Shown here: in pieces, positions 12,225-48,980 of the stretch
Layout: each line of letters starts with the position of its first letter
Position numbering within the stretch: the first letter of the stretch is position 1
Notes under the pieces: model-generated
The model's database searches: none
Told to the model about the DNA's origin: nothing
What the model saw: only the letters and a program-made list of their open reading frames with translations
NCBI RefSeq assembly: GCF_001435895.1
Contig: NZ_AZFZ01000001.1
Location: forward strand, 1-64,000
Source: Lentilactobacillus parafarraginis DSM 18390 = JCM 14109
Lineage (GTDB): Bacteria; Bacillota; Bacilli; Lactobacillales; Lactobacillaceae
DNA length: 64,000 bases
Direction: 5' to 3'
Program-made: the position numbers and the translations under genes

Positions 12225-13652
12225 TTATAGATTTTTATCCATGTTAAACGTTAACTTTGAGAGATTGAGTGACTTTTCAAAAAGGGTGTGAATCATGTGC
12301 TCAGTGGCAATCCGCATCATTTTAACCATTTGATGATTTTGCTCAGTCAAATAGTTGGATAATTCAGTCCCTGAAAGGCCAGCAGCCTCATCGATGGTTT
12401 CTTGAACATGTCGGCGTAGCTTTTCCTTAGAATCAGTCAAGAAATCAACATCGTCTTGAATCAGCTCCGAATAGTGGGCCTCAACCAAGACAGACAATTT
12501 CCGATACATCCAGTACGCACTCTTGTCATCACAGTGAACCGGAGTGTTTTCGTAACTCTCATCAGTCCGGTCAGAATTAGCAAAGAATGGGACGTATGGT
12601 GAAAATGCGGGAACACCGAAGTTCAACCACATAATCGCACTACAATCCGTATCCACGTCGTTTCTGATCTGCAAAACGTGGGAATTTTGAGTTCGGTTCA
12701 TTGAGATCGGGCGAAAGAGGGTCTTAGTTTCTTCATTTCCCCGACTCAACGGATCGTATTCGGTCTCATTGTAGTGAGAACTTAAAATATACTCAACATC
12801 TTCAACGCTGATCTTTTTGTCAGTTCGGCAAATGAAGGGCAGGTCGGACGATGTCGGTGACTGGGCAATTTCCGGATTGAGATAACGTTGGCCAAACCAA
12901 ACGCGTGGCGTGTTGTAATGACGATCCTTTTCGTTATCGGTTCCAAATATCCGCCGGAAATTAAATCCTTTGTGATTGGTGTTAAGATGATATTTTTCAA
13001 CAAACGCCTGGATACCGTCAGAATACATAAAGTTATCCGGATCATCAAAGTCAACCTGTTGAATCGCAACTTGATTGGCAGCAATTGCGTAAGCATCGTC
13101 AGGAATTCGCTGGGCAACCCAGTGATGGCCAGTCACAATTTCCATGTACCAAACTTCATCCTTGTCACTAAAGAGCACCCCATTACCCTCAGGGGAACCA
13201 TACTGCTTAATTAATTTACCGAGGTACTGAACGCCATCACGCGCGGAGTCAATGTACGGCAGAACCATCGATTGTAATGAGTCTTCGGCAAGCCCGTCAA
13301 CAACCAGCGGATCATATGCCAGCGCCCGTTCATTCCCGTAGACACTCTCGGTCGCACTCATGGCAACGTTTTTCTCGTTAAAGCCACTTTCAGCGTATAC
13401 GCCCTCCTTGTCAACCTCAACGTTGGGGGTCAGTGAATAGCGGTAGCCGCTGGTCGGCAATGGCGCCGTGAACCCATTTTGATTGGATTTCCAAGTTTCG
13501 TGCCGGTCAGAAACCGCTGGGTTCACATAAAAGCGCTGCGGGGTTAACGGGAGAAATGTGTCGTCATTTCTGGCGATCATGGTCGATCCGTCAATCGATG
13601 CTTTCTTTCCTACCAATACCGTTGTACAAGCTGATAAATGCTTTGATGCCAT
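12225..13652 (-). CDS. pepD: C69 family dipeptidase PepD
   Basis: Cytoplasmic N-terminal-nucleophile peptidase that splits a broad range of dipeptides and feeds amino acid recycling. The catalytic Cys is residue 8, in SACTTVLVGKKASIDGS, followed by MIARNDD, the classic lactobacillar PepD start. The 475-residue length is normal. Seven residues before the Cys may be removed to expose the nucleophile. It starts 22 bases after the prfC stop, so the two may share a transcript. A large palindrome follows it. Other PepD paralogues are common in this family of organisms, so the exact paralogue name is open. Confidence 0.92.
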   Translation of the reverse strand: MASKHLSACTTVLVGKKASIDGSTMIARNDDTFLPLTPQRFYVNPAVSDRHETWKSNQNGFTAPLPTSGYRYSLTPNVEVDKEGVYAESGFNEKNVAMSATESVYGNERALAYDPLVVDGLAEDSLQSMVLPYIDSARDGVQYLGKLIKQYGSPEGNGVLFSDKDEVWYMEIVTGHHWVAQRIPDDAYAIAANQVAIQQVDFDDPDNFMYSDGIQAFVEKYHLNTNHKGFNFRRIFGTDNEKDRHYNTPRVWFGQRYLNPEIAQSPTSSDLPFICRTDKKISVEDVEYILSSHYNETEYDPLSRGNEETKTLFRPISMNRTQNSHVLQIRNDVDTDCSAIMWLNFGVPAFSPYVPFFANSDRTDESYENTPVHCDDKSAYWMYRKLSVLVEAHYSELIQDDVDFLTDSKEKLRRHVQETIDEAAGLSGTELSNYLTEQNHQMVKMMRIATEHMIHTLFEKSLNLSKLTFNMDKNL

Positions 13653-13674
13653 TAAGAATCGCTTCTTTCAAAAA

Positions 13675-15249
13675 TTATAGTTTAGCCGTTAATTCAACGT
13701 CGGGATACTTATCTTTGAACCAACGCATTGCAAATTGATTTTCAAATAAGAAGAGTGGCTGACCCGCCCGATCTTTGACCAGCAGGTTTCTCGATGAGGC
13801 CATTCTTGGATCCAACTGATCAGGATTAACCCAGCGGGCAATTTTGTGCCCCAGTGGTTCCATGTTAACGTCGGAATTATATTCGTTTTTCATCCGGAAT
13901 TGGAACACTTCAAACTGCAGTTGGCCAACGGCCCCAAGCACGTAATCATTCGTGGTCGTTGACTTGTACAGCTGAACCGCTCCTTCTTGGACCAACTGGT
14001 TAATTCCCTTATGAAACGACTTTTGCTTCATCACGTTCTTCGCAGAAACCCGCACAAAAAGCTCGGGAGTAAATTGCGGGAGCTTCTCAAATTCAACCGG
14101 AGATTTCCCGGTATAAATCGTATCGCCGATCTGAAAGTTGCCAGTATCGTACAGCCCAATAATATCGCCGGCAACGGCGGTATTGACATTTTCCCGAGTA
14201 TTGGCCATAAATTCAGTCACATTGGATAAACGTAACTTTTTGCCGGTCCGAAACAGGTTAACGTCCATTCCCTTCTCAAACTCACCGGAACAGATTCGCA
14301 CGAACGCAATCCGATCCCGATGGTTGGGGTTCATATTCGCCTGAATTTTGAACACAAATCCAGAAAATTGCTGAGCATCGGGAGCAATCACGTTGCCCTC
14401 CTGAGTTTTGTGGGCGCTTGGCGCTGGCGCATATTTAAGATAGGCATCGAAGAAAGTCTTCACCCCAAAGTTAACTAGGGCTGAGCCAAAGAACACTGGG
14501 GTTAAATCCCCAGTCGCGATCTTTGCTTCATCAAATTTATTGCCCGCCATATCTAATAAATCAACGCTATCCTTGGTTTCCTTGAACTGGTCATCTTCGG
14601 CTAATTCCGGATTATCTACTGGATTATTGTCATCATCCAGGGCAACCATTTTGCTTTTCTGCTCATGGGTATAAAGTTCAACGCGGTGATTATACCGATC
14701 AAAGATTCCCTCAAGTGTCTTGCCCATTCCAATTGGCCAGTTCATGGGGTAAGCTTGGACCCCCAAAACCGTTTCCAATTCGTCAATGAGATCCATTGGG
14801 TCACGGCCATCCCGATCCAGTTTATTCATAAAGGTAAAGATCGGGATCCCCCGCATCTTACAAATTTGAAATAATTTTTTCGTTTGCGGCTCAATTCCCT
14901 TTGCGGAATCGATTACCATGACAGCTGAATCAACAGCCATCAACGTTCGATAAGTATCTTCTGAAAAATCCGCATGTCCAGGGGTATCCAGGATGTTAAT
15001 CCGTTTACCACCGTAGTCGAACTGCATCACAGAGCTGGTAACTGAGATGCCCCGCTTCTGTTCAATTTCCATCCAGTCTGACTTGGCAAAGTTACCGGTC
15101 TTTCTGGCCTTAACGGTTCCGGCTTGACGAACCACCCCGCCAAACAACAGCAGCTGCTCGGTAATCGTCGTCTTTCCGGCATCCGGATGGGAGATGATCG
15201 CAAAGGTCCGCCGCGTGTTGTCCCTGGTTTGTAATGTTTGATTACTCAT
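13675..15249 (-). CDS. prfC: Peptide chain release factor 3
   Basis: Translational GTPase that removes RF1/RF2 from the ribosome after peptide release. The 524-residue protein shows G1 ([13 protein letters not shown] near residue 20), G3 ([14 protein letters not shown] near 90), G4 ([10 protein letters not shown] near 145) and the RF3-type C-terminal domains ([19 protein letters not shown]). AGGAAGG precedes the ATG. It lies downstream of the teichoic acid genes, from which a terminator separates it. Confidence 0.95.
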
Positions 15250-37372: not shown

Positions 37373-37909
37373 TTATACCCGATTAATTCTTGGAATTCGC
37401 ACCCGCTGCCCCACGATAACGGCAACAGCTACTTTGAGCGTATCGCCGGGGATAAAGGCCAGATTGGCCATTACCGCTGGCAGCCAAGGCATCCCCGAGC
37501 CAATTATCAGCCAAAGGGAGCCGAGAATGTCAACCAGAAGAACGGCCCCAATCCAGGTCCCCACTGCCTGACGACCGGGATGATGCATGAACGCACTCGC
37601 GTTGACACTGGCGATAAATGCCGGCGTTAGCAGCCAACCAATTAAATAGCCAGCCGTGGGACCCACAAAGACGGCCGGTCCCGCTTGGCCGCCGCTTAGA
37701 ATTGGAAACCCAAGTAGGGCGAGTAACAGAAATAATCCGACGGCGATGGTTCCCCGTTTTGGTCCCAAGACGATGCTGGCAATCATAATCCCGAGGTTCT
37801 GCAAGACAATTGGTACCGGGACAAAAGCCAGTGGGATCGGCGGAATCAACCCGAGAATGATGATCACTGCCGTCATCAGAGCAACTTGAGTCATGTCATG
37901 AATTTTCAC
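37373..37909 (-). CDS. bioY: Biotin transporter BioY (ECF S component)
   Basis: Membrane substrate-binding unit that captures biotin and couples to the shared ECF module. The protein has 178 residues and six hydrophobic segments. The family pattern VPVPIVLQNLGIMIASIVLGPK (residues 29-50 region) and the VGPTAGYLIGW stretch near 83 are intact. The start is GTG 37909, five bases after GGAGG; the frame is open further upstream but runs through a hairpin. It follows birA on the same strand, so biotin uptake and protein biotinylation are linked. Confidence 0.92.
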   Translation of the reverse strand: MKIHDMTQVALMTAVIIILGLIPPIPLAFVPVPIVLQNLGIMIASIVLGPKRGTIAVGLFLLLALLGFPILSGGQAGPAVFVGPTAGYLIGWLLTPAFIASVNASAFMHHPGRQAVGTWIGAVLLVDILGSLWLIIGSGMPWLPAVMANLAFIPGDTLKVAVAVIVGQRVRIPRINRV

Positions 37910-37944
37910 GTAAACCTCCAATAAAATCGCGAGTGAGAGAAAAA

Positions 37945-37959
37945 ATGGTTCGCTACCAT
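37945..37959 (-). terminator. Small hairpin between birA and bioY
   Basis: ATGGT/ACCAT with a 5-base loop followed by a T run on the minus strand. The stem is short; it may end some birA transcripts. Confidence 0.4.
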
Positions 37960-38043
37960 GGTGGGATAACGCCATTAAGACAATCGATGCTTTTGTCTCA
38001 GCGCCCATCACTAACAAACTGATTCACAATCAAGCGCAATTGA

Positions 38044-39036
38044 TTAGCCATGATAGTGACTGTTTGGCATGAAAACTTTTTTAACCTCACCACTGCTAAC
38101 GGTGACCTGCAGGCCATTTTCTTGCTGAACCACTAAAGCTCCCTGATCGTTAAACCGGATCGCCGTGCCGACGATGGTCTGATTGCCCATGATAATCTCA
38201 ACTTTTTGACCCAGAGTTTCGGATAATTTAGCATATTCCGGCAAGAACTGGCCGGTATGATATGTCTGATACATATAGAAAAAGTTATCAATGATTCCAG
38301 CCACAATCTGATTACGATCCACGTTACTTTGCCGGACGACCGCGCCAGCCTTGTCCCGAATATCACAGGGAAAGTCACTGGAACTAACGTTGAGACCGAT
38401 GCCGACGATCACGTTTTCGTGAACCCCATCTTCCAAACTGGAAATGGCTTCGGTTAAAATGCCGCCACATTTTCGATGGTGCACCAGAATGTCATTCACC
38501 CATTTTACCCGAAAATCAACTTCCGGGAAAAAATGCTGCAGCGTCTGGATCACGCAGACCGCCGTCCCAGTGGTAATTAGGCCGGAGTGAATTTCTCGCC
38601 GGTCCTGCAGCGGGATCAGAACGCTCATATAGATCCCGGTCTGAGGAGGTGAATAAAAACGCCTGCCTAAACGGCCGTGGCCGCGGGTTTGCGTATCAGT
38701 CACAAACACCACCGGCTTGGCCAGCGGATAGGTCGAACTATACGCCTTTGCATAGTCATTCGTCGAGGTCAGGGTTTTAAAGCACTTCACATCCACCGGA
38801 AATGTGGTTAGTCGGTGGTGGGCAATCACCTGGGGGTCAAAGGTACTCGAGAATTTGTAAGCGTACCCCAGTCCCTTCTTGGTGATAATGGTGTGGCCCT
38901 GACGTTCCAATTTAAGGATATTATGGTAGACAGCCGGCCGACTGATATTGAGCTTTTTTGCGAGATCATTACCGGAAACGTATCGCCGATCGCATCTGAG
39001 AAGCTCATGTAGAATTTGTGATTGATAGTCTGACAC
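38044..39036 (-). CDS. birA: Biotin protein ligase with repressor domain (BirA)
   Basis: Attaches biotin to AccB and, through its N-terminal HTH (NDLAKKLNISRPAVYHNILKL near residue 23-43), can repress biotin genes. At 330 residues it is a group II ligase. The catalytic core shows TRGHGRLGRRFYSP near 112 (biotinyl-AMP loop) and VKWVNDIL near 158. The start is GTG with AGAGG ten bases upstream. It lies 46 bases after fabI, with no terminator between, so it may be expressed with the acc genes whose product it modifies. Confidence 0.93.
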   Translation of the reverse strand: MSDYQSQILHELLRCDRRYVSGNDLAKKLNISRPAVYHNILKLERQGHTIITKKGLGYAYKFSSTFDPQVIAHHRLTTFPVDVKCFKTLTSTNDYAKAYSSTYPLAKPVVFVTDTQTRGHGRLGRRFYSPPQTGIYMSVLIPLQDRREIHSGLITTGTAVCVIQTLQHFFPEVDFRVKWVNDILVHHRKCGGILTEAISSLEDGVHENVIVGIGLNVSSSDFPCDIRDKAGAVVRQSNVDRNQIVAGIIDNFFYMYQTYHTGQFLPEYAKLSETLGQKVEIIMGNQTIVGTAIRFNDQGALVVQQENGLQVTVSSGEVKKVFMPNSHYHG

Positions 39037-39082: not shown

Positions 39083-39844
39083 TTAAATTAAGTGAACACC
39101 CTTATCAACATACACAATATCGCCAGTCATCCCAGTTGCCAAATCACTCATCAAGAAGGCGGCAACATTGCCGATTTCTGCGGTGGTCACACTCTTCTGA
39201 TCAACGGTTCGTGATTGAGATTCCTTCAGGAGTTCCCCATGGTGCTTGATTCCGGTAACGGCCAGTGTCTTAACCGCGCCAGCAGAAATGGCGTTAACGC
39301 GAACACCGGCATCCCCTAGATCAGATGCTAAATAGCGGACGCTTGATTCGAGGGCAGCCTTGGCAACCCCCATCATGTTGTAGTTCGGAATTGCCCGGGT
39401 TGACCCAAAGTAGGTCAACGTCAAGATACTTCCGGGATTGGTCAAGAATGGTTTGGCATAGCGACTCACCGCAATCAGTGAGTAAGCACTAATGTTTTGA
39501 GCCAAATCATACCCGTCACGGGTCGTATTCACTAAGCCCGACGTCAACGTGTCCTTATCCGCATAGGCAATCGCGTGAATCACGCCATCAATTTTCCCGT
39601 GCTTTTCCCCGATTTCTGCAAACGCCTTTTCAATGTTCTTGTCATCTGAAACGTCACATTCAACCAATTCGGAATCTTCGGGCACGAAGCGCTCAAGGCT
39701 CTTCTTAATTCGATCATTTTGATACGTCAGAATCACGTTGGCACCCTGGTCCAAAATCGCTTGGGTACATCCCCATGCGATGCTGCGCTTGTTGGCAACA
39801 CCCATAATTACAATTGTTTTTCCATCTAAAAAGCCACTCATCAT
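39083..39844 (-). CDS. fabI: Enoyl-ACP reductase (NADH) FabI
   Basis: Last step of each fatty acid elongation round. The protein has about 253 residues. The SDR-type NAD site is GVANKRSIAWG (residues 13-23 region) and the catalytic Tyr-x6-Lys is in YNMMGVAKAALE near 155. The start is one of two adjacent ATG codons (39844/39841) behind GGAGG; the frame upstream to 39868 overlaps the accA stop region and has no ribosome site. It is the last fab gene of the operon. Confidence 0.95.
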   Translation of the reverse strand: MMSGFLDGKTIVIMGVANKRSIAWGCTQAILDQGANVILTYQNDRIKKSLERFVPEDSELVECDVSDDKNIEKAFAEIGEKHGKIDGVIHAIAYADKDTLTSGLVNTTRDGYDLAQNISAYSLIAVSRYAKPFLTNPGSILTLTYFGSTRAIPNYNMMGVAKAALESSVRYLASDLGDAGVRVNAISAGAVKTLAVTGIKHHGELLKESQSRTVDQKSVTTAEIGNVAAFLMSDLATGMTGDIVYVDKGVHLI

Positions 39845-39867
39845 TTCGGCCTCCAAATTAATTTTCA

Positions 39868-40638
39868 CTAGAACTTACGATAACGGTTATGGCGTTGACG
39901 CATTAATTCATCAACGGGCAGATTCTTTAATTCATTAAATTGATTAGCTAAAAAGTCCCGTAACGGCTCCAAATCGTCGCCAGAATGGTATTCGTGAATA
40001 ATTTGATCAATAATACCAGTTTTCAATAACCATTCCGGGGTCAATTTCAGCGCTTCGGCGGCCTCTTTAACCTTTGCCGAATCCTTCCACATAATGCTTG
40101 CGTAACCTTCCGGAGATAGCACGGAATAAATGCTGTCTTCAAACATGAAGACCCGATCGCCACACGCCAGAGCAATTGCGCCGCCACTGCCGCCTTCACC
40201 AACAATGATACTAATGTATGGCACCCGTAACTGCATGCCGACTTGTAAGCACTGGGCAATTGCCGAGCCAATGCCGTGATATTCGGCATCAACATCCGGC
40301 CAGGCCCCCGGCGTGTTCACCAGTGCCAAAATTGGCCGGTGAAACTTTTCTGCTTGCTTCATCAAACGCAACGCCTTCCGGTAGCCTTCTGGTTCCGGAC
40401 TGCCAAAGTGGCGCTTGATATTTTCCTCCGTGTCGGTGCCTTTTCGAATGCCCACAACCGTAATCGGCTGATCATTTAACCGGCCAACGCCGCCAATGAC
40501 GGCCTGATCATCCCCATCAGACCGGTCGCCATGAAGTTCGAAAAAGTTGGAAATTAATCCTGATATTAGTTCATCAGTGGTCATTTTTTTGGGACTCCGA
40601 GCAGCGGTGACCCGTTCATAAGCTGTTTTATTCGCCAT
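39868..40638 (-). CDS. accA: Acetyl-CoA carboxylase carboxyltransferase, alpha subunit
   Basis: With AccD it moves CO2 from biotin-AccB to acetyl-CoA, giving malonyl-CoA. The protein has 256 residues, somewhat shorter at the N terminus than the E. coli subunit, as usual in lactobacilli. It shows GGSGGAIA near residue 150 and LVNTPGAWPD near 105. It overlaps the accD end by 11 bases, pointing to translational coupling and equal amounts. Confidence 0.95.
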   Translation of the reverse strand: MANKTAYERVTAARSPKKMTTDELISGLISNFFELHGDRSDGDDQAVIGGVGRLNDQPITVVGIRKGTDTEENIKRHFGSPEPEGYRKALRLMKQAEKFHRPILALVNTPGAWPDVDAEYHGIGSAIAQCLQVGMQLRVPYISIIVGEGGSGGAIALACGDRVFMFEDSIYSVLSPEGYASIMWKDSAKVKEAAEALKLTPEWLLKTGIIDQIIHEYHSGDDLEPLRDFLANQFNELKNLPVDELMRQRHNRYRKF

Positions 40639-41473
40639 TCGCGTTCTCCTTTGTATGTAAGGATAACAGGTTGGTTAACGTCTTTTTCATGTCGCTTCTG
40701 GGAACAATGGCGTCGATGAAGCCGTGTTGAATCACGGTTTCAGCTCGCTGAAAATCCTTTGGCGGCTGTTTCATAATTGTCTGCTCAATCACGCGCCGAC
40801 CGGCAAACCCAACCAACGCGTGGGACTCTGCCAAAATAATGTCGCCCTGCATCGCGAAGCTGGCCGTCACCCCACCGGTTGTTGGATCGCACAGAACAAC
40901 CAGGTAAAATAGACCGGCTTTACTGTGGGCTTCGACGGCCTGAGAAACTTTAGCCATCTGCATCAAGGAATTGATTCCTTCCTGCATCCGGGCCCCGCCT
41001 GAAGCGGTAAACATCACCACCGGCAATTGATCACGAGTTGCCCGTTCAAATAAGCGGACAATCTTCTCACCAGTTGCGCTGCCCAGGCTTCCCATTACAA
41101 AGAACGGATCCATAATCCCGACAGCAACCTTCATCTTAGCAAGCGTCCCGATTCCAGTCAGCACGCTTTCCTTAATGCCGGTGACCTTCTTTGCCTTGGC
41201 AACTTTGGCCATATACTTTTCATCGGTATACTGCTTGGGAACGGTGACATCACTATCCAATTCCTCAAAGGAGTCAAAGGTAATTTTTGCCCGGCGTTTG
41301 GCAGTAATTCGAAATCCAAAGCCACAGTTCGGACAAGTTCGCTGCTTGCCGGCGCGCATCGAAAAGAACGTTGAATGACAAACCGGACATTCCTTCATAA
41401 TATTGTCGGGGATGTTGTCCATCCGCTTCTTCAATTCTTCCCGGCTCGGCATCTTAAACCGACTTTGCAGCAT
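40628..41473 (-). CDS. accD: Acetyl-CoA carboxylase carboxyltransferase, beta subunit
   Basis: Partner of AccA. The N-terminal zinc ribbon has four Cys (CPVC near residue 34 and CPNC near 53), and the crotonase-fold core shows TASGGARMQEG near 155. At 281 residues the length is normal. It overlaps the accC stop by 20 bases and takes its ribosome site GGGAGGGG from the accC end. Confidence 0.96.
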   Translation of the reverse strand: MLQSRFKMPSREELKKRMDNIPDNIMKECPVCHSTFFSMRAGKQRTCPNCGFGFRITAKRRAKITFDSFEELDSDVTVPKQYTDEKYMAKVAKAKKVTGIKESVLTGIGTLAKMKVAVGIMDPFFVMGSLGSATGEKIVRLFERATRDQLPVVMFTASGGARMQEGINSLMQMAKVSQAVEAHSKAGLFYLVVLCDPTTGGVTASFAMQGDIILAESHALVGFAGRRVIEQTIMKQPPKDFQRAETVIQHGFIDAIVPRSDMKKTLTNLLSLHTKENANGE

Positions 41474-42833
41474 CTAATCCCCTCCCGTTATTAAGGACGT
41501 CGTTTTCAATGAAGCTGGTTGAGTAGGTTCCTTGGTTAAATTGGTCGGTGGCAATCAAATCATACAGGAACGACTGATTCGTCGTTACCCCAGTAATTTC
41601 GAGCTCACCTAATACCCGTTTCATTTTGGAAATGACGGCGTCACGATTGTTCAAATGAACAATCAGCTTGGCAATCATTGAATCGTAAAATGGCGAAATG
41701 AAGCTGCCGTTAGTCACGCCAGAGTCAATCCGGACGCCCAGCGACCCATCTGGGAAGAATAAATGGGTAATCTTTCCCGGCTGCGGAGCAAAGTTGTGGT
41801 CCGGATCCTCGGCATTTAAACGGCATTCCAGTGCATGTCCCTTAACGGCTGCGTCTTCTTGGGTAAAGGAAAGTGCTTCACCACTGGCAACTTCCAATTG
41901 ACCCTTAACCAGTTCAATGCCGGTCACCTCTTCGGTAATCGTATGCTCAACCTGAAGGCGCGTGTTCATTTCCATAAAGTAAAAGTGATGATCATCATCC
42001 ATGAGAAATTCGTAGGTGCCCGTGTTGGTATATCCCAACTTCAGGGTGGCATTGGCGACAATTTCACCGAGCTTTTGGCGTTCAGCGGCAGAAATCAAGA
42101 CGCAGGGGCTTTCTTCAATCACCTTTTGATGATTTCGCTGTAGTGAACAATCCCGCTCCGGGAGGTAAACCACGTGACCAAATTCATCGGCGATCACCTG
42201 CATCTCAACGTGTTTGGCGTGCCGAATCAGCTTTTCCACGTACATACTGTCGTCGTCAAATGACGCGCGAGCTTCCCGTTGCGCCTGAGCAAAAGCGTCG
42301 CGCAGCTGATCAGGGCGATCAACCTCGCGAATTCCCTTGCCACCGCCACCGGCAGCTGACTTCAATAATACTGGGAACCCAATGCGCTCAGCGACTTTCT
42401 CAGCCTGGGCAATCGACGTCACGTCCCCTTCACTGCCAGGAATGACGGGCACGCCGGCAGACTTCATTGCTTCTCTCGCATTGGCCTTATCACCCATTAA
42501 TGAAATTAACTGGTGACTGGGGCCAATAAATTTAATATGGCAAGTTTCGCATAGCTGCGCGAACTCGGCATTTTCGGACAAAAATCCATATCCGGGATGA
42601 ATGGCTTGACAGCCAGTTAACGTTGCCGCACTGATAATCTGCGTCATGTTCAGATAGGAATCCCCGGGCTGGGGACCGCCAATGCAGATCGCTTCATCCG
42701 CTAAATGAACAAACAAACTATCCTTGTCAGCACTTGAATAAACCGCAACCGCTTCAATATTCAGATCATGAAGGGCCCGAATAATCTGAACCGCAATTTC
42801 GCCACGATTTGCCACTAATACTTTTTTAAACAT
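41454..42833 (-). CDS. accC: Acetyl-CoA carboxylase, biotin carboxylase subunit
   Basis: ATP-grasp enzyme that carboxylates biotin on AccB. At 459 residues the length is normal. VLLKSAAGGGGKGIR near residue 155 is the glycine-rich ATP loop, and FMEMNTRLQVEH near 285 carries metal and catalytic residues. It lies 69 bases after the FabZ-like gene in the fab operon. The next gene accD overlaps its end. Confidence 0.97.
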   Translation of the reverse strand: MFKKVLVANRGEIAVQIIRALHDLNIEAVAVYSSADKDSLFVHLADEAICIGGPQPGDSYLNMTQIISAATLTGCQAIHPGYGFLSENAEFAQLCETCHIKFIGPSHQLISLMGDKANAREAMKSAGVPVIPGSEGDVTSIAQAEKVAERIGFPVLLKSAAGGGGKGIREVDRPDQLRDAFAQAQREARASFDDDSMYVEKLIRHAKHVEMQVIADEFGHVVYLPERDCSLQRNHQKVIEESPCVLISAAERQKLGEIVANATLKLGYTNTGTYEFLMDDDHHFYFMEMNTRLQVEHTITEEVTGIELVKGQLEVASGEALSFTQEDAAVKGHALECRLNAEDPDHNFAPQPGKITHLFFPDGSLGVRIDSGVTNGSFISPFYDSMIAKLIVHLNNRDAVISKMKRVLGELEITGVTTNQSFLYDLIATDQFNQGTYSTSFIENDVLNNGRGLDAAKSV

Positions 42834-42902: not shown

Positions 42903-43319
42903 CTATTCAACGGCAAAGATGAGGTCAGCTTCAGTAATCACCTGACCGTCACGCGTAATTTTACCGTGACCAAGGCCGATGTTCATCCGGAGCTTCTTCA
43001 TTTCCACATTAAAGATCAACTTGTCACCCGGCCGAAAATCGTCGCTGAAGGTGGCATTCTTGATGCCGCCAAAGAACACATTTTTGCCGTGATACTCAGA
43101 CAGACTCAAAATTGCGGCAACCCCGGTTTGGGCCATCGCTTCAATCATGATTGGTCTGGGCACCACTAGTTGCCCGGGTTTTTGATTCTCAAAGAACCAT
43201 TCGTTAATTGAAATTAACTTAACCGCCTCGGCGGATTTTCCAGGTTCAACATCCAAGAACCGGTCAATCATTTGAAAGGGATAGCGCTGTGGAATCATGT
43301 CATTTACTTCTGGTTTCAT
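42903..43319 (-). CDS. FabZ-like hotdog protein lacking the catalytic His
   Basis: A 138-residue hotdog-fold protein of the 3-hydroxyacyl-ACP dehydratase family in the usual second-fabZ place, between accB and accC. The N-terminal QRYPFQMIDR and the helix IMIEAMAQTG (with the catalytic Glu) are kept. Where FabZ has GHFPG with the catalytic His, this protein has NQKPGQ, so the His is missing. It is unlikely to dehydrate like FabZ. It may be a structural partner of the first FabZ, an isomerase-like variant or a regulator. The reading frame is intact with a ribosome site AAGGGG, so it is kept under selection. Confidence 0.85.
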   Translation of the reverse strand: MKPEVNDMIPQRYPFQMIDRFLDVEPGKSAEAVKLISINEWFFENQKPGQLVVPRPIMIEAMAQTGVAAILSLSEYHGKNVFFGGIKNATFSDDFRPGDKLIFNVEMKKLRMNIGLGHGKITRDGQVITEADLIFAVE

Positions 43320-43323
43320 CTGA

Positions 43324-43797
43324 TTACCCCTTCGTTACTTGAAATAGCGGCTGACCATATTCAACCATGCTGCCATCCTTGACCAACACGTTTGAAATCG
43401 TTCCGGTGACGTCGCTCTTAACCTCATTAATCATCTTCATCGCTTCAATCACACAGACGACGTCGCCCTTCTTTACCTGATCTCCCTGTTTTTTGAAAAC
43501 CGGTTTATCCGGACTTGGCGCAAAGTAGATCACGCCCACTAGCGGTGCCGTGATTTCGGCAACGTTGTCGTCGACTGGTTGGCCACTGGTAGTGGTCTGG
43601 GATTGTTGCTCCTGACCGTTTTGTACAGGCCGTGTCCCATTACTGGTAACAACTTCAGTTGGCTGCGGTGTTTGATCCGGTTCAGCAGCTTCTCGCTTGC
43701 TGAACGCCAACTGAAAGTCGTCCTGACTCAGCTTAAAATCTTTAAGTGTTGATTTATCAAACTTCTCTAATAAACGTTCAATCTCTTTCTCGTCCAT
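43324..43797 (-). CDS. accB: Acetyl-CoA carboxylase biotin carboxyl carrier protein
   Basis: Carries biotin between AccC and AccA/AccD. Of 157 residues, an N-terminal helix is followed by a Gln/Thr/Pro linker (residues 35-75) and the biotinyl domain with the attachment Lys in EAMKMINEV near 120. It is modified by BirA, encoded farther down the same strand. It ends 5 bases before the FabZ-like start. Confidence 0.97.
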   Translation of the reverse strand: MDEKEIERLLEKFDKSTLKDFKLSQDDFQLAFSKREAAEPDQTPQPTEVVTSNGTRPVQNGQEQQSQTTTSGQPVDDNVAEITAPLVGVIYFAPSPDKPVFKKQGDQVKKGDVVCVIEAMKMINEVKSDVTGTISNVLVKDGSMVEYGQPLFQVTKG

Positions 43798-43799
43798 TA

Positions 43800-45029
43800 T
43801 TAGTCACATCCCTTAAATGCAATCACCGCATTATGGCCTCCAAAACCAAATGAATTACTGATTGCGACGTTAACGGGTGCCTTTTTATTGTCATCATTAA
43901 CCAGGTTGACGGTGCATTCTTCATCTTGGTGCTGCACCCCAACGTTAACCGGCATCTGGTTACGTTGAATGGCCCCGATCGTGGCAACGGCTTCAATCGC
44001 GCCGGCTGCGCCCAGTGCATGACCGGTCATGCCTTTGGTGCTGCTGACCTTCACGTGATCGTTAGTTGAGAAGACCTCACTAATGGCTTTTGACTCAGCA
44101 CTGTCGTTTGCATGGGTACTAGTCCCGTGGGCATTAATATAATCAACGTCTTCTGCGGCAACGCCAGCTTCGTCAATGGCCATCTGCATGGCCCGCTTGG
44201 CACCCTTACCTTCTGGATCAGGGGCAGTCATGTGGTAAGCGTCACTGGTAGTTCCGTAACCGACAATTTCAGCCAAAATTTTGGCACCACGCTGTTTCGC
44301 ATGATCGTAATCTTCAAGAATTAAGGTGCCTGAACCTTCCCCCATTACGAAGCCGTTTCGATCCTTATCAAACGGAATCGAAGCCTTTGTTGGGTCCTCG
44401 GCCTTTGATAAAGCGGTCAGTGAAGCAAATCCAGAGATCCCAATTTCATTGACTGAGGCCTCGGTACCACCGGTAATCATGACTTTAGCCTTACCGAGCT
44501 TAATCTGCTCAAAAGCATTGCCGATCGCGTTGGTTCCTGAAGAACAGGCAGTTACGATTGCCTGGCTGGTATTTTGGGCGTTAAAAGCAATTGAAATGTT
44601 TCCGGCGGCCATATTAATGATTGAATCCGGCACAAAGAGTGGGGACACCCGCTTAGGTCCCTTATCATGCATCTTAATGACCTGCTGCTCGATAGTTGTC
44701 AGGCCACCAATTCCGGAGCCATAGATGACCCCCAAGTCCTCGGGGGCAACGTTGGTTTCGTCCAAGCCAGCATCTTCCATTGCTTCCTTGGCTGAATACA
44801 GCGCGTAAGTACAGAAAAGATCGTTCCGTTTGGCAAATTTCTTATCCACCCGTTTGGTTGGTTCAAAGTCTTTGACTTCACCAGCAACCGTAATTCCGGT
44901 CGGTTCAGAATCAAACTTTGTAATCTTATTAATCCCAACCTTTGAATTAAAGAGGTTGGTTAAAAATGTCTCAACATCATTTCCGATGGGGGTAACGGCT
45001 CCCATTCCGGTAACAACTACTCTGTTCAT
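43800..45029 (-). CDS. fabF: 3-oxoacyl-ACP synthase II
   Basis: Condensing enzyme that extends acyl-ACP with malonyl-ACP. At 409 residues the length is normal. The catalytic triad is Cys in TACSSGTNAIG near residue 163, His in NAHGTSTHAND near 300 and His in GMTGHALGAAG near 338. AAAGGAGA precedes the ATG. It is the only elongating synthase in the operon and may therefore set chain length and, with FabZ-type enzymes, unsaturation. Confidence 0.97.
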   Translation of the reverse strand: MNRVVVTGMGAVTPIGNDVETFLTNLFNSKVGINKITKFDSEPTGITVAGEVKDFEPTKRVDKKFAKRNDLFCTYALYSAKEAMEDAGLDETNVAPEDLGVIYGSGIGGLTTIEQQVIKMHDKGPKRVSPLFVPDSIINMAAGNISIAFNAQNTSQAIVTACSSGTNAIGNAFEQIKLGKAKVMITGGTEASVNEIGISGFASLTALSKAEDPTKASIPFDKDRNGFVMGEGSGTLILEDYDHAKQRGAKILAEIVGYGTTSDAYHMTAPDPEGKGAKRAMQMAIDEAGVAAEDVDYINAHGTSTHANDSAESKAISEVFSTNDHVKVSSTKGMTGHALGAAGAIEAVATIGAIQRNQMPVNVGVQHQDEECTVNLVNDDNKKAPVNVAISNSFGFGGHNAVIAFKGCD

Positions 45030-45047: not shown

Positions 45048-45776
45048 CTAGATCGTCAGGCCGCCATCAACGGTAACAACCTGCCCGGTGATGTATTGAT
45101 TGTGAATCAAGAATGCGACCGTATCAGCAATTTCATCAGCCTCACCAAAACGTTTCAACGGAATCTGGTCGGCAAATTCTTTCTGCCGGCGATCACTCAT
45201 CTTTTCAGTCATGGCCGTGCGGATCATGCCGGGAGCAACCGCATTTGCGCGAATGTTTCGCAGTGTGCCTTCACGAGCAGCCGTTTTGGTTAAGCCCACA
45301 AGGCCGGCTTTGCTGGCCGAGTAGTTGGCCTGACCTAAGTTTCCGTGAAGCCCTGAAATACTTGAAATGTTCACAATTGCGCCGGATCGCGCCTTTTGCA
45401 TCACCTTCATGGCAAACTTAGTCATGTTAAACGCGCCAACTAAATTGGTATCTAGAACCGCTTTGAAATCTTCAAGGCTTAAGCGACTCAACAATTTATC
45501 TTTGGTGATGCCGGCATTATTCACCAGCACGTCAAGTTGGCCATAGGTTTCAACGGCCGTGTCAATCATTGATTTAGCGTCATCTTCGTCAACAACGTCA
45601 CCGACCACATTAATGTACTGATCGGAAAACTCAGCCAACTGTTGCTTCACCTCATCACTTAACGGATGATGACTATTGATGATCACCGAAAAGCCATCGT
45701 GAAGCAATCGACTGGCGATTGCCAACCCGATTCCTTTGGCAGCACCGGTAACTAACGCTACTTGTTTCTCACTCAT
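45048..45776 (-). CDS. fabG: 3-oxoacyl-ACP reductase
   Basis: NADPH-dependent SDR enzyme that reduces 3-ketoacyl-ACP. At 242 residues the length is normal. TGAAKGIGLAIA (residues 11-22) binds the cofactor; the active residues are Ser in NISSISG near 140 and Tyr/Lys in YSASK near 152. Its ATG overlaps the fabD stop (TAATG), so translation is coupled. Confidence 0.97.
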   Translation of the reverse strand: MSEKQVALVTGAAKGIGLAIASRLLHDGFSVIINSHHPLSDEVKQQLAEFSDQYINVVGDVVDEDDAKSMIDTAVETYGQLDVLVNNAGITKDKLLSRLSLEDFKAVLDTNLVGAFNMTKFAMKVMQKARSGAIVNISSISGLHGNLGQANYSASKAGLVGLTKTAAREGTLRNIRANAVAPGMIRTAMTEKMSDRRQKEFADQIPLKRFGEADEIADTVAFLIHNQYITGQVVTVDGGLTI

Positions 45777-46693
45777 TATTTCACCAACTTCATGTTTGTT
45801 CTTACTTCGTTTAGGGTTGCCACGCTATCCACGTGGTAGGCCTGGACGTTGGGAATTGATTTCAACGCGAACTTCATCAACGTATCGCCAGGGCCGATCT
45901 CGATCATTGCCTGACTATCAAGGTTGTGAAGGGCTTGCAGACAGTCGACGAAATACGTTGGGTTGACCAGTTGATCAACCAACGTCTGCTTCACGTGTGC
46001 CAGTTCGAACGGCTGCTTAGTCGTGTTACTGATAACCGGGAATTTAAAATCATGAAATGCGACATTGACAACCCGGTCAGCCAACAAATCGCTGGCTTCC
46101 TGCATAAACGGGGTGTGGGAGGCAACCGTCATCTTGAGCGGTACCACCCGTTTAATCCCGTGTTCATGCAGAAAATCAGTTGCGGCAGCAAGGCCCGCTT
46201 CCGAACCGCCAATCACAATTTGAGAAGTTGTGTTGTAGTTAGCCGGATAAATCTCGCCGGCCTGTGAACCCACACGACAAGCTTCCCGGACAATATCGGG
46301 ATTGGCCTTTAGCACGGCGGCCATTTTTCCGGGATGGTTTTGTCCAGCCCGGTCCATATATTGACTGCGATCGTGAACCAATGGCAATGCATCTTCAAAT
46401 TGAATTCCGCGGGCGGCGATCAGCGCACTATATTCGCCTAAGCTCAGGCCGGCAGCGCCGATGGGGGCCCCAACATCTTTTTCAAGGATGCGGTAAATCC
46501 CGGTGCTCATCGTCACAATTGCGACCTGCGTATTCTTAGGATCGCTCATCACGTCTGGATTGCGAAGGTCCAAGTGTAAAATATCAGAGGCCTCTTCAAT
46601 GGTGTCGCGGTAGATCGATTCTTGCTGATAAATATCCTGGCCCATCCCGGCAAACTGCTTGCCTTGGCCGCTAAATAAATAACTTAGTTTCAA
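45776..46693 (-). CDS. fabD: Malonyl-CoA-ACP transacylase
   Basis: Moves malonate from CoA to ACP. The 305-residue protein has the nucleophile Ser in GLSLGEYSALIAA near residue 90 and the active His in VASHTPFM near 198. The start is TTG at 46693, with only a weak GGGTTG ribosome site, 12 bases after the acpP stop. Weak initiation could keep the level below that of ACP. The SGQGKQ motif near residue 8 supports this start. Confidence 0.95.
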   Translation of the reverse strand: MKLSYLFSGQGKQFAGMGQDIYQQESIYRDTIEEASDILHLDLRNPDVMSDPKNTQVAIVTMSTGIYRILEKDVGAPIGAAGLSLGEYSALIAARGIQFEDALPLVHDRSQYMDRAGQNHPGKMAAVLKANPDIVREACRVGSQAGEIYPANYNTTSQIVIGGSEAGLAAATDFLHEHGIKRVVPLKMTVASHTPFMQEASDLLADRVVNVAFHDFKFPVISNTTKQPFELAHVKQTLVDQLVNPTYFVDCLQALHNLDSQAMIEIGPGDTLMKFALKSIPNVQAYHVDSVATLNEVRTNMKLVK

Positions 46694-46705
46694 AATATCA
46701 ACCCA

Positions 46706-46945
46706 CTATTCAGCTTTTTGCTTCAAAACGTAGTTTACCAAATCGTCAACCGTTTCCATGCCATCATCGGTTTCGATTTCGATGTCGTAAGTATCTTCAA
46801 TTTTGTCAACAACTTCAAAGATGTCCAAGCTGTCAAGATCCAAATCATTCTTGAAGTTGGTATCTTCCTTAATTTTGTCTGCGTCAACGTCCAATTGGTC
46901 TACCACGATATTCTTTACTTGGTTGAATACTTCTTCTTTAGTCAT
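46706..46945 (-). CDS. acpP: Acyl carrier protein
   Basis: A 79-residue, very acidic carrier protein. The phosphopantetheine Ser is in DLDSLDIFE (Ser near residue 39). CGGAGGA lies ten bases before the ATG. It sits between fabH and fabD. The phosphopantetheinyl transferase gene is not in this window. Confidence 0.97.
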   Translation of the reverse strand: MTKEEVFNQVKNIVVDQLDVDADKIKEDTNFKNDLDLDSLDIFEVVDKIEDTYDIEIETDDGMETVDDLVNYVLKQKAE

Positions 46946-47017: not shown

Positions 47018-48001
47018 TTAATACGTCAAGATCATGGTGCCGACCGTTAAGCCGCCGCCAAATCCCGACAGCGCAATGACATCACCGCGCTTGATAATCC
47101 CGTCTTTGACCAGCTGGTTCAGCAAAATCGGCTCGCTGGCCGCGGCGGTATTGCCATACTCATCGATGTTGACGGGAAATTTTTCCGGTGCCACATTCAG
47201 CGTCGCCGCAATCCGCTCAACAATTCGACTATTGGCCTGATGAAGCACAAAATGATCGATGTCGGCAACGCTTAGAGAAGCTTGGGCCAAAGCCCGGTTA
47301 ATGGATTGGGGGACTTCATTAACCGCGAACCGATAAACCCGCCGCCCGTTCATTTTAAAGAACGGGTTGGTAGCGGTCTGATCCTTGGTGAACGGTGTCG
47401 GCTGACCGGTTTGGCCAGCCGTCAGGTACTGTCCCATGCTGCCAAGTGTCTTCAAGTCTTCGGCCCGAAACGATCCGGCGGACTTCTCGGCATTTTCAAT
47501 TAGAACACCGCCAGCACCGTCGCCAAACAGGACGGCGGTCGACCGGTCATGCCAATCAATCAGTTTACTGAGCGTTTCCCCACCGATTAAAATCGCGTGT
47601 TTGCGTTGATCGCCCATCAACATCTGGCGAACCACTTTGAGGCCATAGACGAACCCCGAACAAGCAGCGTCAAGATCCATTGCAACCGCGTTATCCGCCC
47701 CCAGGTTTCCCTGCACGATTGCGGCCGTAGCCGGAGTCAGATAATCTGGTGACATTGTCGCGACCACAATCAGGTCAATGTCTCGAGCCATTAAGCCGCT
47801 CTTTTTCAGCAGCTGATTGGCAACGGCTGTCCCCAGCGAGCTGGTGGTTTCATGAGTAGCAATGTGCCGCCGCTTAATGCCGGTTCTCTGGGTGATCCAC
47901 TCATCGGATGTATCCATCATCGTTGACAATTGATCATTGTCAACAACGTGGTCGGGAACCGCGGCGGCCGTTGCCATAATTTTGAAATCTTCAAACTTCA
48001 T
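47018..48001 (-). CDS. fabH: 3-oxoacyl-ACP synthase III
   Basis: Starts fatty acid synthesis by condensing acetyl-CoA (or another primer) with malonyl-ACP. The 327-residue protein has the triad Cys in DAACSGFVYG near residue 112, His in FVLHQANSRI near 248 and Asn in GNTAAAS near 280. Its ATG overlaps the fabT stop (ATGA), so it is translationally coupled to the regulator. Primer preference is not readable. Confidence 0.96.
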   Translation of the reverse strand: MKFEDFKIMATAAAVPDHVVDNDQLSTMMDTSDEWITQRTGIKRRHIATHETTSSLGTAVANQLLKKSGLMARDIDLIVVATMSPDYLTPATAAIVQGNLGADNAVAMDLDAACSGFVYGLKVVRQMLMGDQRKHAILIGGETLSKLIDWHDRSTAVLFGDGAGGVLIENAEKSAGSFRAEDLKTLGSMGQYLTAGQTGQPTPFTKDQTATNPFFKMNGRRVYRFAVNEVPQSINRALAQASLSVADIDHFVLHQANSRIVERIAATLNVAPEKFPVNIDEYGNTAAASEPILLNQLVKDGIIKRGDVIALSGFGGGLTVGTMILTY

Positions 48002-48465
48002 TTTGATGAGACCTCGCCAATAAAATCTTCGACATTTAACAATGCCTGTTTCATTTTTTTAATATCGGCACCCCCGAATCCCTTGAGACACTGCTCAACG
48101 AGTTTTCGGTGAAACGCGTAGTGGGCCCGATACAGCAGCCGCCCCTTACTTGTTAGCGCAAGGTTGATGATTCGCCGATCCTGAAGGTTGGTAATCCGGG
48201 TGATGTAGCCCTTCCGTTCCAAATTATTTAAATTTGCCGTAAGGGTTCCCTTACTCAAGCGGAGAATCCGGGCGACTTCCGACGTCGTTTTCCGGTCGTG
48301 TAGGCCGATCGTATGAACCAAATGCAACTCTTTTGCAGTGATGTCCTTAAAACGACTCTTTCGAATCTCGCTTTCTTCAATTCGCATAATCTGGTCATAA
48401 ATGTCGATTAGCGCATCGCTGATAAAGTTGTAGTCAGCTTTAATTTCATCACTCGTAGCATTCAT
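47998..48465 (-). CDS. fabT: MarR family repressor of fatty acid synthesis, FabT
   Basis: A 155-residue winged-helix protein (HTH around TTSEVARILRLSKGTLTANLNNLERKGY split over residues 68-95). FabT uses long-chain acyl-ACP as corepressor and binds ATTTGATNATCAAAT-like sites. Two such palindromes lie upstream of the operon, so it represses its own gene together with the pathway. AGGAGA precedes the ATG. It is second in the operon, after fabZ. Confidence 0.93.
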   Translation of the reverse strand: MNATSDEIKADYNFISDALIDIYDQIMRIEESEIRKSRFKDITAKELHLVHTIGLHDRKTTSEVARILRLSKGTLTANLNNLERKGYITRITNLQDRRIINLALTSKGRLLYRAHYAFHRKLVEQCLKGFGGADIKKMKQALLNVEDFIGEVSSK

Positions 48466-48492: not shown

Positions 48493-48939
48493 TTAAATTT
48501 TCTTTTTGGGATCCGGCACAATGAAACTCAGTGTCGCCGAGCAGGCAACTTTATCGTCAACCTTGGCTTCACACTTTACCTTGCCCATGTTGTCACGCTG
48601 TTTTTCCATATCAACGTGCAATTTCAAAACGTCGCCGGGACGAACAACTTTTCTAAACTTAGCATTATCAATTGAACCAAGATAGGCAGTCTTGCCGAGG
48701 TACTTTTCGGTCTTTAAAATCAGAATTGACGCCGCCTGGGCTAACGATTCGATAATTAAGACCCCTGGCATAACGGGATTCCCAGGGAAATGCCCCTGAA
48801 AAAACTCTTCGTTAATCGTGACGTTCTTGGTACAAACAATCGACTCTCCAGGATTGAGTTCATCAACCCGGTCCATAAACAGGATCGGATAACGGTTGGG
48901 AATCAAATCCATAATTTCCGAAGCATCTAATACACTCAT
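48493..48939 (-). CDS. fabZ: 3-hydroxyacyl-ACP dehydratase FabZ
   Basis: Dehydrates 3-hydroxyacyl-ACP to trans-2-enoyl-ACP. The 148-residue protein has the canonical motif EFFQGHFPGNPVMPGV with the catalytic His, and the Glu in LIIESLAQA. The start at ATG 48939 is fixed by AAAGGAAG; the frame open to 48975 lacks a site. It is the first operon gene, right behind the FabT-controlled promoters. Relatives at this place may also isomerise the double bond (FabN-like), which would supply unsaturated fatty acids. Confidence 0.94.
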   Translation of the reverse strand: MSVLDASEIMDLIPNRYPILFMDRVDELNPGESIVCTKNVTINEEFFQGHFPGNPVMPGVLIIESLAQAASILILKTEKYLGKTAYLGSIDNAKFRKVVRPGDVLKLHVDMEKQRDNMGKVKCEAKVDDKVACSATLSFIVPDPKKKI

Positions 48940-48980
48940 TGGTTTCTTCCTTTCAGCAACAAACTGATGAAACAAATAAT

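Follow-up and report, generated by a model that had tools for sequence, protein, structure and literature searches.

The fab-acc operon of the window

The window, which is the whole stretch of 64,000 nucleotides analysed here, contains on its minus strand a fatty acid synthesis operon with the gene order fabZ1, a fabT-like regulator gene, fabH, acpP, fabD, fabG, fabF, accB, fabZ2, accC, accD, accA and a gene for a FabI-type reductase (Table 1). The listed start codon of fabZ1 is TTG, and an ATG located 12 codons further in may be the real start. The ORFs directly after the operon (37373-39036) presumably encode BioY-like and BirA-like proteins, which would fit the biotin need of AccB.

Table 1. 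Genes and sites of the fab-acc operon, in order of transcription (half-sites A and B are defined in the text)
Feature	Position	Strand	Remarks
fabZ1	48493..48975	-	canonical paralogue, FabN orthologue by tree; His62 codon 48790-48792, Glu76 codon 48748-48750
MarR-family regulator, FabT-like	47998..48465	-	150.9 bits, below the curated FabT cut-off of 200
fabH	47018..48001	-	
acyl carrier protein gene (acpP)	46706..46945	-	
fabD	45776..46693	-	
fabG	45048..45776	-	
fabF	43800..45029	-	
accB	43324..43797	-	
ribosome-binding site of fabZ2	43327..43333	-	GAAGGGG, 7 nt upstream of the ATG, just before the accB stop
fabZ2	42903..43319	-	His-less FabZ orthologue between accB and accC; 138 aa, ATG start
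N-terminal loop P10-Q-R-Y-P14 of FabZ2	43278..43292	-	retained, half-site B
degenerate catalytic His loop of FabZ2	43152..43190	-	ENQKPGQLVVPRP, half-site A
Gln46 codon of FabZ2	43182..43184	-	CAA, in place of the FabZ catalytic His (sequence and alignment to FabZ1)
Glu60 codon of FabZ2	43140..43142	-	GAA, catalytic acid retained, half-site B
accC	41454..42833	-	
accD	40628..41473	-	
accA	39868..40638	-	
enoyl-ACP reductase gene, FabI-type	39083..39868	-	domain match; FabI by analogy with the annotated plasmid operon

The ATG of fabZ2 follows the accB stop codon (43324-43326) at a distance of 4 bp. An earlier note on this DNA had described the frame, the ribosome-binding site and the operon place of fabZ2 as intact, and all three are as it stated. 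It had also read the second FabZ-like protein as having lost the dehydratase His but kept the Glu. Alignment with FabZ1 of the same operon gives the same picture: the motif region of FabZ2 is FFENQKPGQLVVPRPIMIEAMAQ, with Gln46 in the place of His62 and Glu60 corresponding to Glu76. FabZ1, called canonical in that note, indeed has His62 and Glu76 and passes the curated NCBIfam FabZ cut-offs.

FabZ2 matches the FabA/FabZ domain (Pfam PF07977) with 73.6 bits against a cut-off of 23 bits, but it misses the curated NCBIfam FabZ cut-offs (111.2 vs 113 and 106.5 vs 155.15 bits). An AlphaFold2 model, made from an alignment of 23 sequences, had a pLDDT of 92.9 and a pTM of 0.88, and its top fold matches were FabZ structures with Z scores of 18 to 23. 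Thus, FabZ2 is an ordinary hotdog protein. Compared with a complete FabZ, it has the fold, the catalytic Glu, the place between accB and accC and the orthology, the last judged on a tree from a short alignment; it lacks the catalytic His and the equivalog score. When its own genome (3.08 Mb, 254 contigs) was searched with FabZ2, two FabZ-type proteins and one very weak match with a stop (E 0.093) were found. In sequence the window resembles Lentilactobacillus: among the matches listed, the closest named relatives at FabZ2 are L. raoultii (87%) and L. hilgardii (85%).

FabZ pairs in Lactobacillaceae

A search with FabZ2 at E 1e-5 gave matches in at least 256 of 397 Lactobacillaceae genomes and at least 31 of 40 genera. 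We read the FabZ genes in 138 loci, namely the window, 15 named loci and 122 others, the last of which cover 29 genus codes. These loci were chosen, not random, being genomes listed with match positions together with 60 picked regions, and they do not stand for 138 species: L149 and L150 are from one genome, L113, L114 and L150 have near-identical operons, L047 and L216 have identical fabH-fabF proteins, and the operons of L035-L039 and L046 are near-identical. The FabZ2 pieces of L158 (broken frame), the remote FabZ-like protein of L203 and L153 were omitted from the counts. The FabZ2 frame of L173 is broken in two and was counted as having His and Glu from its first piece.

FabZ1 and FabZ2 were found together in 132 of the 138 loci. 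A complete FabZ1, with both His and Glu, accompanied a His-less FabZ2 in 70 loci; both proteins were complete in 38; a His-less FabZ1 accompanied a complete FabZ2 in 20; and in four loci FabZ1 had the His but a Gln in place of the Glu, next to a His-less FabZ2. Two loci had only a complete FabZ2, two had FabZ1 with FabZ2 missing or broken, and two had a His-less FabZ2 without FabZ1 in the same locus; in G050, a FabZ1 with His and Glu (L153) is located on another contig. Thus, 94 of the 132 pairs have one catalytic His between two FabZ proteins, and in none of the 132 loci with both paralogues readable were both His-less.

There were 96 His-less FabZ-type proteins (76 FabZ2 and 20 FabZ1), and every one of them, 87 distinct sequences in all, retained the Glu. 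The His was replaced by Q in 41, Y in 17, G in 9, R and P in 5 each, S and N in 4 each, A in 3, F, E and D in 2 each and K in 1, and was deleted in 1. The alignment across Lactobacillaceae that the earlier note had called for therefore finds the His-less FabZ2 widespread (76 loci), with Gln as the commonest replacement when both paralogues are counted. The close orthologues of the window FabZ2 (56 distinct proteins of the same large clade) are all His-less and all have the Glu, far more than chance would give.

The His-less paralogue is FabZ1 in genus codes g9, g12, g20, g29 and g33 and in one g18 genome (L121), and none of these 20 genes has accB or accC as a neighbour. Since the His-less paralogue lies away from accB and accC in these six genus codes, a scaffold for AccB/AccC, one of the roles considered in the earlier note, is rejected as a general role.

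We also looked for another His that might act as the general base. No single His substitutes throughout the His-less proteins. The commonest candidate is His118 (FabZ1 column 134), which is present in 67% of 67 distinct His-less FabZ2, in 16% of 58 His-bearing FabZ2 and in 15% of 20 His-less FabZ1; it is missing from the g22 and g13 proteins and is found in one of seven g37-coded ones. It is thus common but, judged from the alignment, not general.

The main-clade His-less FabZ2 proteins often share the motif NEW[FY]F ... PRP (window 43152-43199), with Trp at FabZ1 column 57, Arg at 71 and Pro at 72. This motif may plug a dead site. In genus codes g23, g32, g34 and g36 (L063, L064, L066, L068, L070, L072, L074, L075, L081), FabZ1 is encoded about 5 kb downstream of FabZ2.

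Two half-sites and their retention or loss

In the literature, the FabZ homodimer has two composite sites, to each of which one subunit contributes the His loop and its partner the Glu. We therefore call the His loop half A, and the Glu with the N-terminal loop, the helix around Glu and Gly131 half B. Columns in which at least 95% of 159 distinct complete proteins have one residue were read in the 87 distinct His-less proteins (FabZ1 numbering). Half A was mostly lost: His62 was kept in 0, Phe63 in 1, Gly71 in 2, Pro67 in 14, Pro64 in 22 and Gly61 in 27 of the 87, and only Pro70 was mostly retained (79). Half B was nearly invariant, with Pro26, Pro30, Glu76, Ala79, Gln80 and Gly131 kept in all 87 and Arg28 in 86. 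Asp35 (86), Glu56 (84), Leu87 (87) and Leu149 (87) were also kept. Columns outside the His loop varied as well, with Ile21 kept in 31, Val37 in 30, Asn51 in 27 and Thr96 in 30, and therefore the rest of the His-less protein is not frozen.

In each of seven groups of His-less proteins, His62 was kept in none, and Glu76, Ala79, Gln80 and Gly131 were complete. Loss of the remainder of half A was uneven: the His-less FabZ1 of g9, g12, g20, g29 and g33 keep Gly61 in 15 and Pro64 in 16 of 19, and the FabZ2 of g37 keeps Pro67 in four of six.

The mirror image was found in FabZ1 of g37. In L111, L122, L129 and L130, Gly61, His62, Phe63, Pro64, Pro67, Pro70 and Gly71 are kept in all four proteins, and Pro26, Arg28, Glu76 (replaced by Gln), Ala79 and Gly131 in none; Pro30, Asp35, Glu56 and Leu149 are retained. 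L122 and L129 have a Glu four residues after the lost one, which might take its place. In FabZ1 of L125 and L126, also g37, Pro26, Arg28, Ala79 and Gly131 are lost and Glu76 is still there, and the g13 partner FabZ1 of L151 has lost Arg28, Ala79 and Gly131 and kept Pro26 and Glu76. The g37-coded L124 falls among Lentilactobacillus on the operon tree and was counted there, not with g37.

The four genomes with the Glu to Gln change encode exactly two FabA/FabZ-family proteins at E 0.01. Their losses are complementary, and within that family the known His/Glu' dyad could be assembled in these genomes by no dimer other than FabZ1:FabZ2. In the clade of the window, neither half of the FabZ1 partners is degraded, each position being conserved in 55 or 56 of 56 proteins; where FabZ1 is the His-less one, its complete FabZ2 partner likewise retains both halves (17 or 18 of 18). 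The catalytic parts are thus divided between two proteins in the four g37 genomes, whereas in the window lineage FabZ2 alone is reduced. In L123 and L128, g37-coded loci with a single FabZ, that FabZ is complete. Several complete g37 genomes (G037, G070, G124, G148, G171 and others) gave no FabZ profile match at E 1e-6 among the matches listed; g37 genomes otherwise hold a split, a single or a complete FabZ.

G368 encodes a FabZ1 of half-A type that has Glu76, directly before a FabI-type gene (L219, G368:C16:8000-22600; 13103-14282), and no FabZ2 or other fab gene was found in the 14.6 kb around it. This may possibly be a relic or an elongation-only system. Next to fabF- and fabG-like genes, the same genome encodes a remote FabZ-like protein with GHF present (L203, 2568); these genes perhaps form a small cluster for a polyketide or another lipid.

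Ancestry, repeated loss and selection

In the loci read from other families of the order, His and Glu are both present in 19 of 19 FabZ encoded between accB and accC and in 10 of 10 FabN-type proteins. One of the latter, L188, shares 90% identity with a protein annotated as FabZ in E. faecalis, whose gene neighbours a fabF; we take this pair to be FabN-FabO. On a tree built without the His loop, Lactobacillaceae FabZ1 grouped with five FabN-type proteins (97*) and FabZ2 fell on the FabZ side; the alignment is short, with few columns, and the deep forks are weak. By this tree, FabZ1 of the operon is the orthologue of FabN, which goes beyond the earlier description of it as the first FabZ of the operon.

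On a tree of fabH-fabD-fabG-fabF, the His state changes at least four times for FabZ2 and at least twice for FabZ1, and the Glu state changes twice for FabZ1 and not at all for FabZ2. The His of FabZ2 is lost in three of the g22 loci read and kept in four, and that of FabZ1 is lost in one of eight g18 loci. Because the outgroups are complete and the losses are scattered both on the operon tree and within g22 and g18, complete pairs were likely the starting state and the losses were repeated. On the FabZ protein tree, the His-less FabZ2 of g37, g13 and g22 are grouped (support 92), and therefore the FabZ2 losses could be fewer than the four of the operon tree. A FastTree of FabZ proteins including the His loop gave three His-state changes and was set aside for including that loop.

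In seven Lentilactobacillus comparisons, FabZ2 evolves faster than FabZ1 (dN 0.110-0.196 vs 0.050-0.080). Synonymous sites approach saturation (pS 0.72-0.92) and dN of FabZ2 is below 0.2; saturation of dS left only 3 of 14 comparisons in which dN/dS was computable. A pseudogene or local accident is rejected, since the His-less state is common to orthologues from many genera and dN remains low where synonymous sites are nearly saturated. The suggestion in the earlier note that the protein is kept for another task agrees with a His-less form that is old, widespread and under purifying constraint.

A mirror-tree test, run on 112 loci, placed FabZ1-FabZ2 eleventh of 15 operon pairs, with a partial correlation of 0.01, and gave no rate-correlation support for their pairing. 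By far the strongest pair was fabG-FabZ2 (0.59).

A proposed split-site dehydratase and its alternatives

We think that FabZ2 of the window is probably the half-B subunit of a heterodimeric 3-hydroxyacyl-ACP dehydratase, FabZ1:FabZ2, that is, FabN:FabZ. For the four g37 pairs the same arrangement would be more probable still. In such a dimer, the His62 loop of FabZ1 would be set against the Glu60 helix and the N-terminal loop of FabZ2 to give one working site, and the mirror site, made of the FabZ1 Glu and the broken FabZ2 loop, would be dead. FabZ1 would thus supply the His loop, and FabZ2 the acid and the substrate channel. Either partner, though not both, would be free to lose its His loop; the loser would have to keep the Glu and channel, and its partner might afterwards lose Glu and channel in turn. 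A heterodimer with one complete site predicts the pattern of loss and retention that was observed. From that pattern we infer both the binding of FabZ1 to FabZ2 and a working composite site, in which P26-P30, A79-Q80 and G131 presumably line the cavity together with Glu76. The conserved Tyr-Pro of the FabZ N-terminal loop is described as lying on the active-site tunnel (PMC2698920). The retained half-B residues and the losses in the g37 partner make it more likely that FabZ2 supplies the acid and channel of a shared site. The earlier note had thought of a non-catalytic partner of FabZ: the partnership is what we too propose, and "non-catalytic" probably says too little, as half B is kept and FabZ1 of g37 has lost much of that half. 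Since FabZ1 of the window lineage keeps both halves, its homodimer may also be active there; in the four g37 genomes, a FabZ1 homodimer could not, to judge from its residues, be active by the known mechanism. Other findings that speak against the proposal are the lack of mirror-tree support, the uneven loss of half A, the half-A FabZ1 of G368 with no FabZ2 encoded nearby, and the Glu that follows the lost one in L122 and L129.

The retention of both halves by main-lineage FabZ1 is also what would be expected if FabZ1 homodimers carried out the dehydration and FabZ2 were a pseudoenzyme, filling a mixed FabZ hexamer or binding ACP or acyl-ACP to tune flux. The FabZ oligomer has been described as a trimer of dimers (PMC2698920), and half B, with its N-terminal loop and AxxQ helix, may instead be retained for folding or for the FabZ hexamer. 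The new residues that orthologues share where the loop is broken, Trp at column 57 and Pro at 72, could signify a new role, and FabZ1 and FabZ2 showed no rate correlation. We nevertheless regard this explanation as unlikely, since it fails to predict the Glu in 96 of 96 His-less proteins, and equally fails to predict that FabZ1 of g37 and g13 would lose much of the very half that FabZ2 has kept.

It is quite improbable, in our judgement, that FabZ2 works independently as an enzyme of altered chemistry, in which Gln46 or the strand residue His118 replaces the His, or which acts as a Glu-only enoyl-ACP isomerase. The frequency of Gln among the replacements and the enrichment of His118 in His-less FabZ2 would suit it, but the 12 different replacement residues and a deletion, the absence of His118 from g22 and g13 and its scarcity in g37 do not. 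The unsaturated-fatty-acid enzyme, FabN, is the other paralogue, and a Glu-only isomerase is not needed to explain FabZ2. That FabZ2 is simply a decaying gene seems hardly conceivable: its dN exceeds that of FabZ1 in all seven Lentilactobacillus comparisons, but the open frame, the ribosome-binding site and the operon place are retained, dN stays low where synonymous sites approach saturation, and half B is nearly constant across genera.

We lean slightly towards a history in which obligate pairing of FabN with FabZ arose early in Lactobacillaceae. With a redundant second site, loss of the His loop would then have been tolerable in either partner and would have happened at least six times, on both sides of the pair, with the split complete or nearing completion in two genera and YcsD-FabZ of Bacillus as a parallel.

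Comparison with known systems

FabZ2 shares with FabZ the fold, operon place, orthology, catalytic Glu, N-terminal loop and central helix, but differs from it in having lost the catalytic His and the GHFPG...P.MPG loop and in scoring under the curated cut-offs. FabN of Enterococcus faecalis, with which the window FabZ1 groups, is a dehydratase/isomerase, and its isomerase activity has, according to that study, no sequence signature (PMC2700279). The FabN-type and FabZ proteins read from other families all keep His and Glu, and no heterodimer need be invoked for them.

ApeI/ApeP of aryl polyene synthesis is described as a heterodimeric dehydratase with a single active site that replaces homodimeric FabZ (PMC8041823). 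It resembles the proposed pair in having two FabZ-like hotdogs and one active site, but it belongs to secondary metabolism and is an established heterocomplex, whereas FabZ1:FabZ2 is proposed from sequence. The ApeI:ApeP structure 6qsr is a remote match to the FabZ2 model (Z 17.8, 16% identity). HadAB of Mycobacterium is likewise reported to be a heterodimeric dehydratase of hotdog fold; it has a single active site, and HadA contains the substrate channel (PMC4491049). HadAB and HadBC differ in that HadB gives both His and Asp, whereas FabZ1:FabZ2 would split His and Glu between the subunits.

The top fold match of the FabZ2 model was 9a6k_B (141 residues; Z 23.1, 41% identical), from a Bacillus subtilis entry entitled "Integrative model of YCSD-FABZ by crosslinking MS and deep learning". 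Chain A of 9a6k (130 residues) ranked 28th, with 34% identity. From the 41% identity, chain B is probably FabZ and chain A YcsD. Proteins that we take to be YcsD are His-less with the Glu in three of four g110 (Bacillus-like) genomes (L233, L234, L238). YcsD-FabZ is therefore alike in combining FabZ with a His-less, Glu-keeping paralogue, and differs in that ycsD lies outside the fab operon; in L234 it is found between genes that we would name mtlD-like and ycsE/ycsF-like. On the protein tree, YcsD, Bacillus-like FabZ and the main His-less FabZ2 clade were joined with support 82 and very long branches. Because FabZ2 occupies the position of FabZ between accB and accC, derivation of the His-less FabZ2 from YcsD was set aside. 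A Trp at apparently the same position as column 57 is present in the YcsD-like proteins and in L235. In L235 (G679) and L237 (G676), FabZ paralogues of other Bacilli families, the GHFPG His is gone and the helix Glu is kept, so FabZ relatives with half B only may be common in Bacilli.

Our literature search found no paper on YcsD function and none naming both YcsD and FabZ, and the main text of the study suspected behind 9a6k mentions neither protein. It likewise found nothing on a FabZ1/FabZ2 pair in lactobacilli, subscription papers lying mostly outside its range.

Annotation pipelines list two FabZ-type dehydratases in genomes of this kind. As 94 of 132 pairs have one catalytic His per two proteins, assaying one of the two by itself may give a misleading picture of activity. 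If the two proteins do form the heterodimer, food and brewing bacteria would possess a FAS II dehydratase of primary metabolism whose dyad is divided between two genes, and a core enzyme of membrane lipid synthesis would have undergone repeated division of one active site between two genes. There would be about six natural replicates of this division, in both directions, with relatives in which both proteins are intact as controls, making the origin of an obligate heterodimer directly testable. Since one partner is a FabN orthologue, the sharing of flux between saturated and unsaturated chains in lactobacilli may also be touched.

Operons on plasmids

A near relative of the operon, with FabZ2 82% identical and a complete FabZ1, is located on plasmids of Pediococcus damnosus and Loigolactobacillus backii. 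The annotation of pL21535-3 from P. damnosus TMW 2.1535 gives the order fabZ, MarR, fabH-type, acpP, fabD-type, fabG, fabF, accB, "FabZ family protein", accC-type, accD-type, accA and fabI. According to a published study (PMC4814128), the sequenced P. damnosus chromosomes are without fabZ and fabI, the plasmid fab cluster is complete and occurs in strong spoilers only, including TMW 2.1535, and in lager beer supplemented with fatty acids fabZ-negative brewery strains grow. Taken together with the plasmid operon, these data suggest that the operon type of the window, with one His in two FabZ, probably supports fatty acid synthesis. That study had already described the plasmid cluster and linked it to beer spoilage.

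The whole fab-acc operons of L035-L039 and L046, which at FabZ2 are 82% identical to the window, are about 99.8% identical to one another across Pediococcus, Levilactobacillus, Loigolactobacillus and Secundilactobacillus, and plasmids of beer isolates carry that operon (NZ_CP012291, NZ_CP012276, NZ_CP014903, NZ_CP014625, NZ_CP014884, NZ_CP014893). Such near-identity across genera, on plasmids, indicates recent horizontal transfer. Three L. backii plasmid records have an ISLre2 transposase inside the matched stretch. A second operon with a His-less FabZ2 (L113, L114, L150) is near-identical in g15, g3 and g12, and is on a plasmid in Paucilactobacillus. The g12 genome G379 has two opposite pairs, one with a His-less FabZ1 and one with a His-less FabZ2.
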